Assembly (NCBI GenBank): GCA_018813285.1
Contig: JAHJBY010000040.1
Span: 1-46,969 of the forward strand
DNA from: Candidatus Omnitrophota bacterium
Lineage (GTDB): Bacteria > Omnitrophota > Gorgyraeia > Tantalellales > Tantalellaceae
Direction: 5' to 3'
DNA: 46,969 nt
Below are positions 26,865 through 29,428 of this stretch, in pieces. The translations under genes were made by a program, and so were the position numbers. The notes beneath the pieces were generated by a model. The model worked only from the letters and a program-made list of their open reading frames with translations. It had not been told where the DNA came from and did no database searches. Numbering within the stretch: position 1 is the first letter of the stretch; each line of letters begins with the position of its first letter.

Positions 26865-26958
26865 TGCTATAATGACGTTTATGGCAGTACCGAAAACTAT
26901 AAAAAACGAATTCGTATATTAATTGTTAGATGGAAAAATATAAAATTTGTGTTATAAT
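26865..26958 (+). promoter_or_regulatory. Two extended -10 promoter candidates in a gene-free region
   Basis: Extended -10 boxes TGCTATAAT (TATAAT at 26868-26873) and TGTTATAAT (TATAAT at 26953-26958) are present without good -35 boxes. No ORF of useful length follows on the plus strand. The remainder of 26686-27146 holds the heptad array, a hairpin repeat and otherwise nothing I recognise. Confidence 0.35.
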
Positions 26959-26971
26959 TTGAACAGAAAGA

Positions 26972-27030
26972 CTCCTGCGAAATGACGTTTAACGGCGTCA
27001 TCGCGAGGAGCGGAGCGACGAAGCGATCTC
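26972..27030 (+). repeat. Interspersed GC-rich hairpin element
   Basis: Arm 26972-26987 and arm 26996-27010 form a long stem with small bulges: CTCCT with AGGAG, GCG with CGC, ATGACG with CGTCAT. The stem runs on into a GAGGAGCGGAGCGACGAAG stretch ending at 27030. The GTCATCGCGAGGAGCGGAG type of sequence is a dispersed repeat that I recognise from many unrelated bacterial genomes. AATGACGTTTA occurs both here and at 26872. Confidence 0.65.
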
Positions 27031-27083
27031 AATGATAGTAAAAAGAGATAAAAATAGGTGGAAAAAGATAAAGATTCGAGTTG

Positions 27084-27110
27084 TTGACAGAAAATAAACA
27101 CAGTTATCCT
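27084..27110 (+). promoter_or_regulatory. Candidate plus-strand promoter next to the IS
   Basis: TTGACA at 27084-27089 is followed after about 17 bases by the weak -10 candidate TCCTAT. A boxA-like TTCTTTGAAAA lies around 27128-27138. Transcription from here would run antisense through the transposase gene. Confidence 0.3.
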
Positions 27111-27146
27111 ATTGGAATAGATGTTCGTTCTTTGAAAATGTAAGAA

Positions 27147-28453
27147 TTAACCTGTCAGACAAACAGCCGGTTCTCTGGCAAAGGTGCGGTAGCATCTGAT
27201 CTTTTCAGGTTGTTCCATAAGTATCGCCGCCGCGCGGGCAACAAGGCTTAATGAAAGGTGGGCGATAGTCATCTGGTTTTTGATGGATCTCATTTTGTAG
27301 TGTGTTGTCTGTTCAAGTTCGCGGTCACCGAGGCGGGCGAAGTAGCGTTCGACTTCGGTACGCAAGTTAAAGGTTTGCTTGTAGAACAATGTCTCTCTCG
27401 GGACGCGTGAGCGGGCGTCATCGGTTACATCCAGGTATTTGGTGCAGCCGTATTTATCGAAACTTGGATGGTTAACCGGACAGCCGAGAGGATGGTTTTT
27501 AGCGAACTTTACGCTGGACTTGATGTGGCACCGGAACTTTTTTCGTGTCCTGAGATCTTCCTGCCAAGTGCCGCAGGGGTTCATTTCGAGCCCGGCATCG
27601 CATAGCGGCAAGCCGTTAGGGCCGAAGATCTTGTCTTGTTGTTTATTGCGGGGGTTTATGGGGATAAACGCGTGCCACTTAAGTTCATTGACAATGAAGT
27701 TGTAAAACGCGCGTTCATCATACGCGGCATCAGCGAGGAGTATAGAGCCTTTGCGGGAACCGTAAACACGTTTAAGTTTTCTTATGAGTTTGCGCGCGGC
27801 GACAGAATCTTTGACATTGTTGGGTAATGTCAGTTCCAAGAGAGGGATGCCCTCTTTAGAAACGATGACATGAGCGCGGTATCCCCAGAAGAAGATGAAG
27901 TTATCTTTTTTGCCGCTAATGGTTTGATAAGAGTAATAGCCGAGAGTTGCTGAAGGGTTACGTCTGGCTTTAAGGTTTTTGTTTCTGGAATTGCGCTTAG
28001 GGTTTTTAAAATTATTTTCTCTAGTTGCGGCCATAACGGGCTTAGAGTCAACAATAAGAATATCATCAGAGATAACGTTCTTATCTAAAAGTTCTTTGAT
28101 AACAGAGTGATGCAGGTTTTGAAGCATGGAATTATTGGTACTTGAGAGGAACCTCTAAACTGAGAAGGGTCCGGAAGAGAGCCCATGTTAAACCCGCACA
28201 TTTCTGTAAGAGCGGGATGGGAGTCAAGGGAGTCAATAAGAGCGGGAACGGATTTTATCTGTTCAAGATGTTTAACGATGAAGGCTCTGATCATGGCGCG
28301 GCGGGAATACCCGGTACGACCGGTAGAGTAATTTTTGTCATGGACGCCGGATAGATCAAGAGATTTGAACAGCAAGTAACATTTGCGATAGAAGTTTGAG
28401 TTTTGTATTAAAAGCTGGAGATCGTAAAAAGGAGAGAATTGAAAATGAGCCAT
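27147..28453 (-). pseudogene. IS transposase, interrupted by a -1 frameshift
   Basis: The N-terminal piece (from ATG 28453, ribosome site GGAGGAAATTT) carries a DUF772 helical DNA-binding region with SRRAMIRAFIVKHLEQI. Near 28152-28160, right after LPDPSQF, the frame shifts: the N-terminal frame ends at 28085 and the catalytic part continues in the -1 frame to 27147. The catalytic part has a DDE triad pattern: IVDSKPV, LLADAAYD and NLRTEVERYF. Joined, the protein would have about 430-440 residues, normal for the family. No canonical slippery heptamer is visible, so a mutation or sequencing error is more likely than programmed frameshifting. Confidence 0.8.
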
Positions 28454-28454
28454 A

Positions 28455-28524
28455 AATTTCCTCCGTTTTTGCTGTAAGTTATTGTTTTGTTTGCACTTAT
28501 AGCATATCACAAACGGAGGAAATT
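28455..28524 (-). promoter_or_regulatory. Inverted repeat sequestering the transposase ribosome binding site
   Basis: AATTTCCTCCGTTT (28455-28468) and AAACGGAGGAAATT (28511-28524) are perfect 14-bp complements, 42 bases apart. Read on the minus strand, the second arm of the transcript is the transposase Shine-Dalgarno and the first arm is its exact complement. An extended -10-like TGCTATAAG lies between the arms. A transcript begun there would lack the masking arm, whereas read-through from outside would include it. Confidence 0.65.
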
Positions 28525-28530
28525 GCAAGA

Positions 28531-28552
28531 AAACAATTTGTATAAATTGTTT
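28531..28552 (+). repeat. AT-rich 9-bp inverted repeat at the IS edge
   Basis: AAACAATTT (28531-28539) and AAATTGTTT (28544-28552) flank GTAT. It has the form of an operator for a dimeric regulator, and lies between the IS leader and the DUF4160 gene. Confidence 0.5.
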
Positions 28553-28611
28553 AAATATAAAGGCTTATGCGTTTTGCATGAGGCATATGTTATGTCTAGA
28601 AAGGAGACGAA

Positions 28612-28881
28612 ATGCCAATAATTTCAATGTTTTATGGAATACTTGTTGCGATTTATTACGAAGATACCGGGAGTCATAATAAGCCGCATATTCATGTCCG
28701 CTATCAAGGAAAAAAAGCTTCGATTTCTATTGAAGATGGAACCGTGCTTGCCGGAGATTTTCCAGCAAAACAACTACGGATGGTTATAGCTTGGATTGAC
28801 ATTCATAAAGATGAACTTATGGCTGACTGGGAATTGGCGGTATCTGGAGAAGAACCTTTCCGCATTGCCCCTCTACAATAA
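28612..28881 (+). CDS. DUF4160 domain protein
   Basis: 89 residues with the DUF4160 pattern: an N-terminal beta region with IYYEDTGSHNKPHIHVRYQGKKASISIEDG, then WIDIHKDELMADWELA. The HNxPHIHVRY core with two histidines is the family hallmark. The function is unknown. DUF4160 genes are very often followed by DUF2442 genes, as here, and such pairs have been predicted to be toxin-antitoxin-like. The ribosome site AAAGGAGACGAA is good. The neighbourhood (IS, attC-like sequence) suggests horizontal acquisition. Confidence 0.9.
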   Translation: MPIISMFYGILVAIYYEDTGSHNKPHIHVRYQGKKASISIEDGTVLAGDFPAKQLRMVIAWIDIHKDELMADWELAVSGEEPFRIAPLQ

Positions 28882-28895
28882 TTATGGAGGAACTT

Positions 28896-29138
28896 ATGGA
28901 AAAATTATTAGATGTTATTAAGGTTGAGCCTCACAAGGATAATACACTATTGCTTGTTTTCGAAAACCAGGAGAAACGGTTATTTGATATGACGCCATAT
29001 TTAGATAAAAAGCCCTTTATAAAGCTTAAGGTTTCAGAATTATTTATAAAAGCAACAGTTGCGTATGGTACTGTCGTATGGCCTGGCAATATTGATATTG
29101 CTCCTGAAACTTTATGGGATTATTCAAAAAACATCTAA
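28896..29138 (+). CDS. DUF2442 domain protein
   Basis: 80 residues from ATG 28896, which has GGAGG at 28886-28890 directly upstream. The earlier ATG 28884 would overlap that ribosome site. The DUF2442 pattern is visible: LDVIKVEPHKDNTLLLVFENQEKRLFDMTPYL, then YGTVVWPGNIDIAPETLWDYSK near the end, the typical GTIxWPNGxDIxPExLY-type block. It is 14 bases after the DUF4160 gene and presumably cotranslated. It is a probable partner of the DUF4160 protein; its biochemical role is unknown. Confidence 0.9.
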   Translation: MEKLLDVIKVEPHKDNTLLLVFENQEKRLFDMTPYLDKKPFIKLKVSELFIKATVAYGTVVWPGNIDIAPETLWDYSKNI

Positions 29139-29207
29139 CAAAAGCATCCAGCTGACCCTTACGACACGTTAACGAACGGTCGGGCATCTGATTGAGGACG
29201 TTAAGAT
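29133..29207 (+). other. attC-like recombination site (candidate)
   Basis: The DUF2442 stop lies within ATCTAAC (29133-29139, fits RYYYAAC). GTTAAGAT (29200-29207) is an imperfect complement with one inserted A (consensus GTTRRRY). Between them, CAG...TGACC (29149-29157) partly pairs with GGTC...CATCTG (29178-29190), and CGTTAACG lies in the central loop. Size (75 bp), position and AACAAAAGCATCCAG wording resemble integron cassette sites. No integrase gene is in the window. Confidence 0.4.
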
Positions 29208-29290
29208 TAGTAGTACCGTCTATCAAATTAATCCTACACCTGTACCTGATCTTAATACCACATCTGTACCCTCGGGTACTTAGAAGAGAG

Positions 29291-29342: not shown

Positions 29343-29371
29343 TTGACATTTGCCGTACATTTTAGTACTAT
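29343..29371 (+). promoter_or_regulatory. Sigma-70-type promoter of the rimP-nusA-infB operon
   Basis: The consensus -35 TTGACA at 29343-29348, a 17-base spacer and the -10 TACTAT at 29366-29371 are all present. Transcription should start near 29378, giving a leader of about 160 bases before rimP. Confidence 0.8.
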
Positions 29372-29393
29372 CATTTTGCAAGCGGTATGGATG

Positions 29394-29428
29394 ATAAGTG
29401 GGCCCGGCGCCCGCTTATTTTTTTATTT
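29394..29428 (+). terminator. Intrinsic terminator in the rimP leader (probable attenuator)
   Basis: ATAAGTGGGC (29394-29403) pairs with GCCCGCTTAT (29409-29418) in a 10-bp stem with one G-T wobble and a 5-base loop, followed by seven Ts. It lies only about 16 bases after the predicted transcription start and before the operon, so most transcripts would stop here unless terminator function is relieved. Confidence 0.75.

Follow-up and report, generated by a model that had tools for sequence, protein, structure and literature searches.

The gene pair between pilZ and rimP

The window analysed here, a stretch of 46,969 nucleotides (contig C125), belongs to a genome (G000) of 1.76 Mb in 146 contigs that is 96.7% complete. 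It carries, in this order, ispG, proS, pilZ, an IS-like insert, a DUF4160 gene, a DUF2442 gene, an attC-like site, a repeat, rimP, nusA and infB; ispG, proS, nusA and infB are what we take these flanking genes to be, and pilZ, the transposase, the DUF4160/DUF2442 pair and rimP are backed by a domain search. The order proS-pilZ-rimP-nusA is kept in three genomes of the family (L172, L185 and L186), where the pilZ-rimP gap measures roughly 150-430 bp versus 2.85 kb here, so that about 2.4-2.7 kb would have been gained between the two genes in this genome. Judged by eye, host sequence seems to be back by 29351-29425 (plus strand), where a native rimP leader with a TTGACA box and a short hairpin is similar to that of the family relatives.

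The DUF4160 gene (28612-28881, plus strand) codes for a putative DhiT-type toxin of 89 aa and the DUF2442 gene (28884-29138, plus strand) for a putative DhiA-type antitoxin of 84 aa. They are preceded by a Shine-Dalgarno-like AAAGGAG (28600-28606, plus strand), at which the homology to the pairs of loci L026 and L034 begins. Both domain assignments, made in the first-pass annotation from the letters, were borne out by Pfam (E 1.7e-25 for DUF4160 and 1.1e-11 for DUF2442). In NCBIfam, DUF4160 matched toxin_DhiT with E 1.3e-25 and 89.8 bits, below the curated cut-off of 100, and DUF2442 matched antitoxin DhiA weakly, with 16.2 bits, below the curated cut-off of 200. On the basis of the Pfam domains and of the gene order, the pair resembles the DhiTA toxin-antitoxin system, in agreement with the toxin-antitoxin-like character first proposed for it. 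According to the available part of PMC8198452, DhiT inhibits growth in D. dadantii and E. coli, and the antitoxin represses the DhiTA promoter, the complex doing so more strongly. The available part of PMC12724237 describes zero transformants for a Thermus plasmid lacking the second ORF and an increased plasmid persistence conferred by the pair. For relatives of the window pair, both papers show growth inhibition by the toxin and its relief by the antitoxin. As far as these texts go, the order of a DUF4160 toxin followed by a DUF2442 antitoxin is common to the window pair and to DhiTA of Dickeya dadantii (PMC8198452), and DUF4160 followed by DUF2442 is also found in the persistence module of the Thermus plasmids (PMC12724237). 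Unlike these two, the window pair, of predicted activity, stays below the NCBIfam cut-offs and ends in an attC-like site.

PADLOC gave no match for the pair, Rfam none near it, and viral contigs held no relative of it. Among solved structures searched by sequence, none was found for DUF2442 and two matches were obtained for DUF4160 (E 0.11 and 0.58). An AlphaFold2 model of DUF4160, based on 38 rows (one from the window and 37 from the 80 loci described below; mean pLDDT 89.6), gave zero matches with E < 0.001 against the PDB, the best Z being 4.4.

The attC-like site

The pair ends in an attC-like site (29133-29207, plus strand), delineated with a covariance model, a box scorer and pairing analysis. 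Its R'' box, ATCTAAC (29133-29139), had been reported to overlap the DUF2442 stop as the start of an element reaching 29207; letters and coordinates were confirmed, the stop codon TAA occupying 29136-29138. R'' is followed by a spacer of 6 bases (29140-29145), L'' (AT-C-CAGCTG-A-CCC, 29146-29158, with extrahelical bases at 29148 and 29155), a loop of 23 bases (29159-29181), L' (GGG-CATCTG-AT, 29182-29192), a spacer of 7 bases (29193-29199) and R' (GTTAAGA, 29200-29206), and the element is closed by GTTAAGAT (29200-29207). The R boxes of attC sites follow the consensus RYYYAAC (R'') and GTTRRRY (R') and are mutually complementary. In the window, R'' fits this consensus at 7/7 positions and R', whose last base is A, at 6/7, and the two boxes pair at 4/7. 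With 10 of 11 pairs in the L''/L' stem, 14 of the 18 model pairs are Watson-Crick, the others falling once in L and three times in R. The unpaired C29148 and A29155 of the top strand correspond to a bottom-strand G and T, in line with known attC sites, for which the available part of PMC2727003 describes extrahelical bases on that arm, the first of them a G called absolutely conserved. Spacings of 6 and 7 bases, with one base between both L parts, also occur in the attC array of a Gemmatirosa plasmid.

By score alone the site, at 21.5 bits, is weak. The covariance scan proposed at first was carried out with our own model R1, built from 26 attC sites picked by hand, none of them from the window, and not with that of IntegronFinder. 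In the window (47 kb), R1 gave a sole match, at 29133-29206 (E 0.011); run without filters on 3 kb, its next-best match reached 6.6 bits. In the whole genome the same site ranked first with an E of only 0.42, followed by a match of 16.0 bits (150 of 296 candidates scored). Of the similar sites elsewhere in the genome for which a search had been advised, none appeared: no second convincing attC was detected by R1 in the window or in the genome. For comparison, the best sites of three other genomes (G018, G016 and G017), none of which is in the model, reached 65, 56 and 53 bits, with two further ones at 28.6 and 25.7 in the first of them.

A strict scan that allowed R''/R' pairs a single mismatch at most was replaced by an L-box scorer because it recovered few sites even in real arrays. 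This scorer, whose spacings were set after viewing real attC sites and the window's own site, ranked the site first on both strands (34.25), a value reached by at least one of 60 shuffled windows (maximum 34.38, 95th percentile 33.9). As to the predicted folding of the bottom strand, the extrahelical bases are present in the L stem, but plain folding was only slightly better than chance (z -1.55; 16 of 200 shuffles fold equally well), and the forced full attC fold (-7.3) costs about 2 kcal/mol relative to the free fold (-9.2). Covariation on alignment A1, whose rows were chosen via the same boxes, was set aside as evidence. A chance origin nevertheless appears unlikely, not because of the score but because the site coincides with the DUF2442 stop codon and this gene has relatives in cassettes, and by origin it is in all probability an attC.

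A dispersed, REP-like host repeat (29209-29273, plus strand), with units containing CACACCTGTACC, begins a few bases past the attC end and has several copies in the genome. This repeat is perhaps a preferred landing place.

Relatives of the pair and their integron context

Eighty of 200 loci with DUF4160 relatives were kept, and a second ORF of 60-130 aa lies directly behind DUF4160 in 78 of them. Judged by their record titles, the nearest relatives (85-94% protein identity) belong to Cloacimonadota, Omnitrophota, Elusimicrobia, Goldiibacteriota, Scalindua, Ignavibacteria and others; such close relatives in different phyla can be read as a sign of horizontal transfer. When R1 was applied to these loci (449,239 bases), 16 matches were obtained, three of them model members. 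The 13 untrained ones are all on the strand of the pair. Nine adjoin the pair directly, of which five end 33-76 bp upstream of the DUF4160 start (L023, L024, L052, L058 and L088) and four begin at most 50 bp past the DUF2442 stop (L023, L071, L085 and L091), the four non-abutting ones being in L038, L040, L055 and L070. TAAC at the DUF2442 stop was also seen in L034, L035, L037, L038, L040 and L070, with no model match at that place; only model-supported sites were counted as attC among the relatives.

The pair of L023, from an Omnitrophota MAG (G148), is 93.2% identical in DNA to that of the window and is followed by an attC of 32.5 bits. The contig of G148 that carries this pair, 42.5 kb long, has an integrase (413.9 bits) at 4.9-5.8 kb; its attC matches lie between 7.1 and 23.6 kb, with further ones at 27.9 and 28.5 kb. 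All of these attC matches point in one direction, which is that of the pair, and the pair ends at the last attC of the array (28.5 kb). Relatives of the same genes are found in attC arrays, in this contig and through abutting sites in 8 of the 80 loci, and together with the R1 match at 29133 they back the integron-type cassette suggested by the first-pass annotation. Of the relatives' genomes, 48 of 80 were searched, and 24 of these 48 had an integron integrase over the cut-off; the figure was 3 of 59 in another set (the genome of the window and 58 relatives), which differs in make-up. The integrases of L115, L116, L117 and L152, in G013 (same family), G029, G053 and the Omnitrophota MAG of L023, have attC matches nearby. 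Among the papers listed by the literature searches, a count for Omnitrophota or Candidatus Omnitrophica was not found, nor was DUF4160 or DUF2442 together with the word 'integron'.

DUF4160 is interrupted by an in-frame stop in 4 of the 80 loci (L023, L026, L027 and L029), DUF2442 being open there. Relative to the window, L026 shows 2 silent codon changes and no others in DUF2442, and 4 silent and 4 replacing changes and one stop in DUF4160. It looks as if the toxin had been lost and the antitoxin retained in L026, because DUF4160 holds the stop and the replacements and DUF2442 silent changes only.

A cassette is expected to carry its attC along. The DNA likeness to the window, however, ends at 29140 in L026 (97.6% identity), at 29141 in L023 (93.2%) and at 29142 in L034 (84%), that is, at the end of R''. 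Behind R'', L023 has an attC of house type, the arms of which agree at 47 of 51 positions with an attC of its own array (L161:4580) and at 25 of 51 with the window; L026 has a perfect hairpin of 30 bases, and L034 another, unlike sequence. The L026 hairpin (1978-2007), an R''-R' hairpin with 11 perfect pairs and no L boxes, stands between the pair and a DUF6868 gene and may be a deleted attC. The break at R'' would reflect either a fast turnover of attC bodies or an exchange of genes and attC sites at R''. We put forward only tentatively, as a rather doubtful proposal, that the R'' box is a point at which gene and attC can be exchanged; recombination at R'' would perhaps be the mechanism by which a gene loses or gains an attC. 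Such a route, if true, bears on the origin of cassettes, and loci of this kind, should genes and attC bodies separate at R'', would be natural cases for studying cassette formation.

It is very improbable that the pair moved without integrons, by plasmid, IS or homologous exchange, the attC-like end being a chance likeness or a terminator. The lack of an R1 match at 67 of the 80 relatives' loci, the presence of relatives of the pair on plasmids (26 records) and the weak folding fit such a movement, but the best R1 match of the genome coincides with the stop codon, the likeness of three relatives stops at R'' and there is no T-run behind the site.

Probable left border and origin of the proposed cassette

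The absence of an integrase noted from the window was extended to the whole genome, in which the best TIGR02249 match has 87.5 bits versus a cut-off of 265; a complete integron, which includes intI, is not found there. Nor does the single attC of window and genome make a CALIN of two or more sites. A former integron or CALIN may have stood here and shed several cassettes, leaving behind a lone attC and, at 26925, GTTAGAT. This is unlikely: the family does have attC matches in 5 of 19 genomes and, in G013, an integrase over the cut-off, and L026 resembles a decaying array in a genome (G151) with no integrase over the cut-off, but a second convincing attC is absent from the window and the genome, and the three family genomes with the same gene order have only the short pilZ-rimP gap.

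The cassettes of real arrays are each preceded by 7 bases that complement the R'' of that same cassette, at 7/7 in 26 of 30 neighbours. GTTAGAT, the full complement of the R'' of the window, is therefore predicted as the left border here (26925-26931, plus strand; cut as G^TT). It has three plus-strand copies in the 47 kb, and the one at 26925 is the single copy between pilZ and the pair; from these numbers, the chance of finding one in that stretch is about one in eight. Shortly behind it, at 26947-26960 (plus strand), TTGTGTTATAATTT is an extended -10 promoter-like stretch and probably the pair's own promoter, since comparison with the leader of the pair in L025 gave 14/14 identical bases (0 of 200 shuffles as high) and with that of L023 11. 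The left piece of the window had no significant counterpart in the leaders of L024, L026 and L034.

An IS-like insert with a split DDE transposase occupies 26967-28583 (minus strand), the borders being approximate: the left one is the same in L188, 70% identical up to 28121, and the right one follows from L189 (92%). The IS first noted beside the pair is represented by two Pfam pieces of DDE transposase on the minus strand, upstream of the pair (27147-28127 and 28085-28528). The transposase (27147-28528) consists of overlapping ORFs in different frames and would be frameshifted or decayed. At 26967-27032, the left end of the insert, there is a second dispersed repeat (CGTCATCGCGAGGAGCGGAGCGACGAAGCGATCTC), which is also found beside the related transposase in L188. 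AGAAAG flanks both sides of the insert (26966-26971 and 28598-28603) and is perhaps a candidate target-site duplication. With the promoter at 26947-26960 and the insert from about 26967 to about 28583, the insert probably parted the promoter from the genes.

GTTATGT (28589-28595), proposed at first as the sequence of a cassette junction, is present as described and was rejected as the left junction: it agrees with the window's own R'' at 5/7 positions, whereas GTTAGAT at 26925 agrees at 7/7, and it sits just past the end of the insert. A true cassette of 611 bp behind the IS, with its left junction at 28589, would have a typical cassette length and a short leader; with 26 of 30 cassettes at 7/7, the adjacent insert end and the promoter common to two relatives at 26947-26960, it is distinctly improbable.

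The best explanation, to which we give a probability of about 0.6, is a lone DhiTA-type cassette put outside an integron, with its left junction at 26925, and later hit by an IS. A single cassette would stand alone between pilZ and rimP in a chromosome with no integron integrase over the cut-off. An integrase supplied in trans, by a passing element or by a gene that has since disappeared, would have folded the attC bottom strand and inserted the circular cassette at a chromosomal G^TT site. The cassette's own TTAGAT (26926-26931) would then stand at the left junction, and at the right one the attC arms would be kept and the last bases of R' (TTAAGA) would be host sequence, which would account for an R' that no longer matches R''. 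If the pair is expressed and its antitoxin turned over, it would hold itself in place as a toxin-antitoxin module, because the toxin would be released once the antitoxin is lost. The IS-like insert would have come later, between promoter and ribosome-binding site.

The reading of a lone cassette put outside an integron implies that integron cassettes spread a DhiTA-type pair across phyla and that a lone leftover cassette would be overlooked by default searches for at least two attC sites; the available part of the IntegronFinder 2.0 description gives two attC sites as the default from which a CALIN is reported. The locus is like an integron cassette or a single-attC CALIN in that its genes end in an attC with no integrase nearby, and in its R and L boxes, extrahelical bases and gene stop at R''; it is unlike a CALIN in IntegronFinder terms in having one attC only, and a degenerate one. 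To judge from how other papers describe Loot et al. 2024, the locus is also like the cassette insertions at attG sites, as a chromosomal cassette outside an integron, and unlike them in that its junctions are deduced from sequence, an empty site proving them not having been found. With a worn attC, and in a genome with no integron integrase over the cut-off, the locus looks like a single integron cassette, once captured and later stranded; elements of this kind are known.
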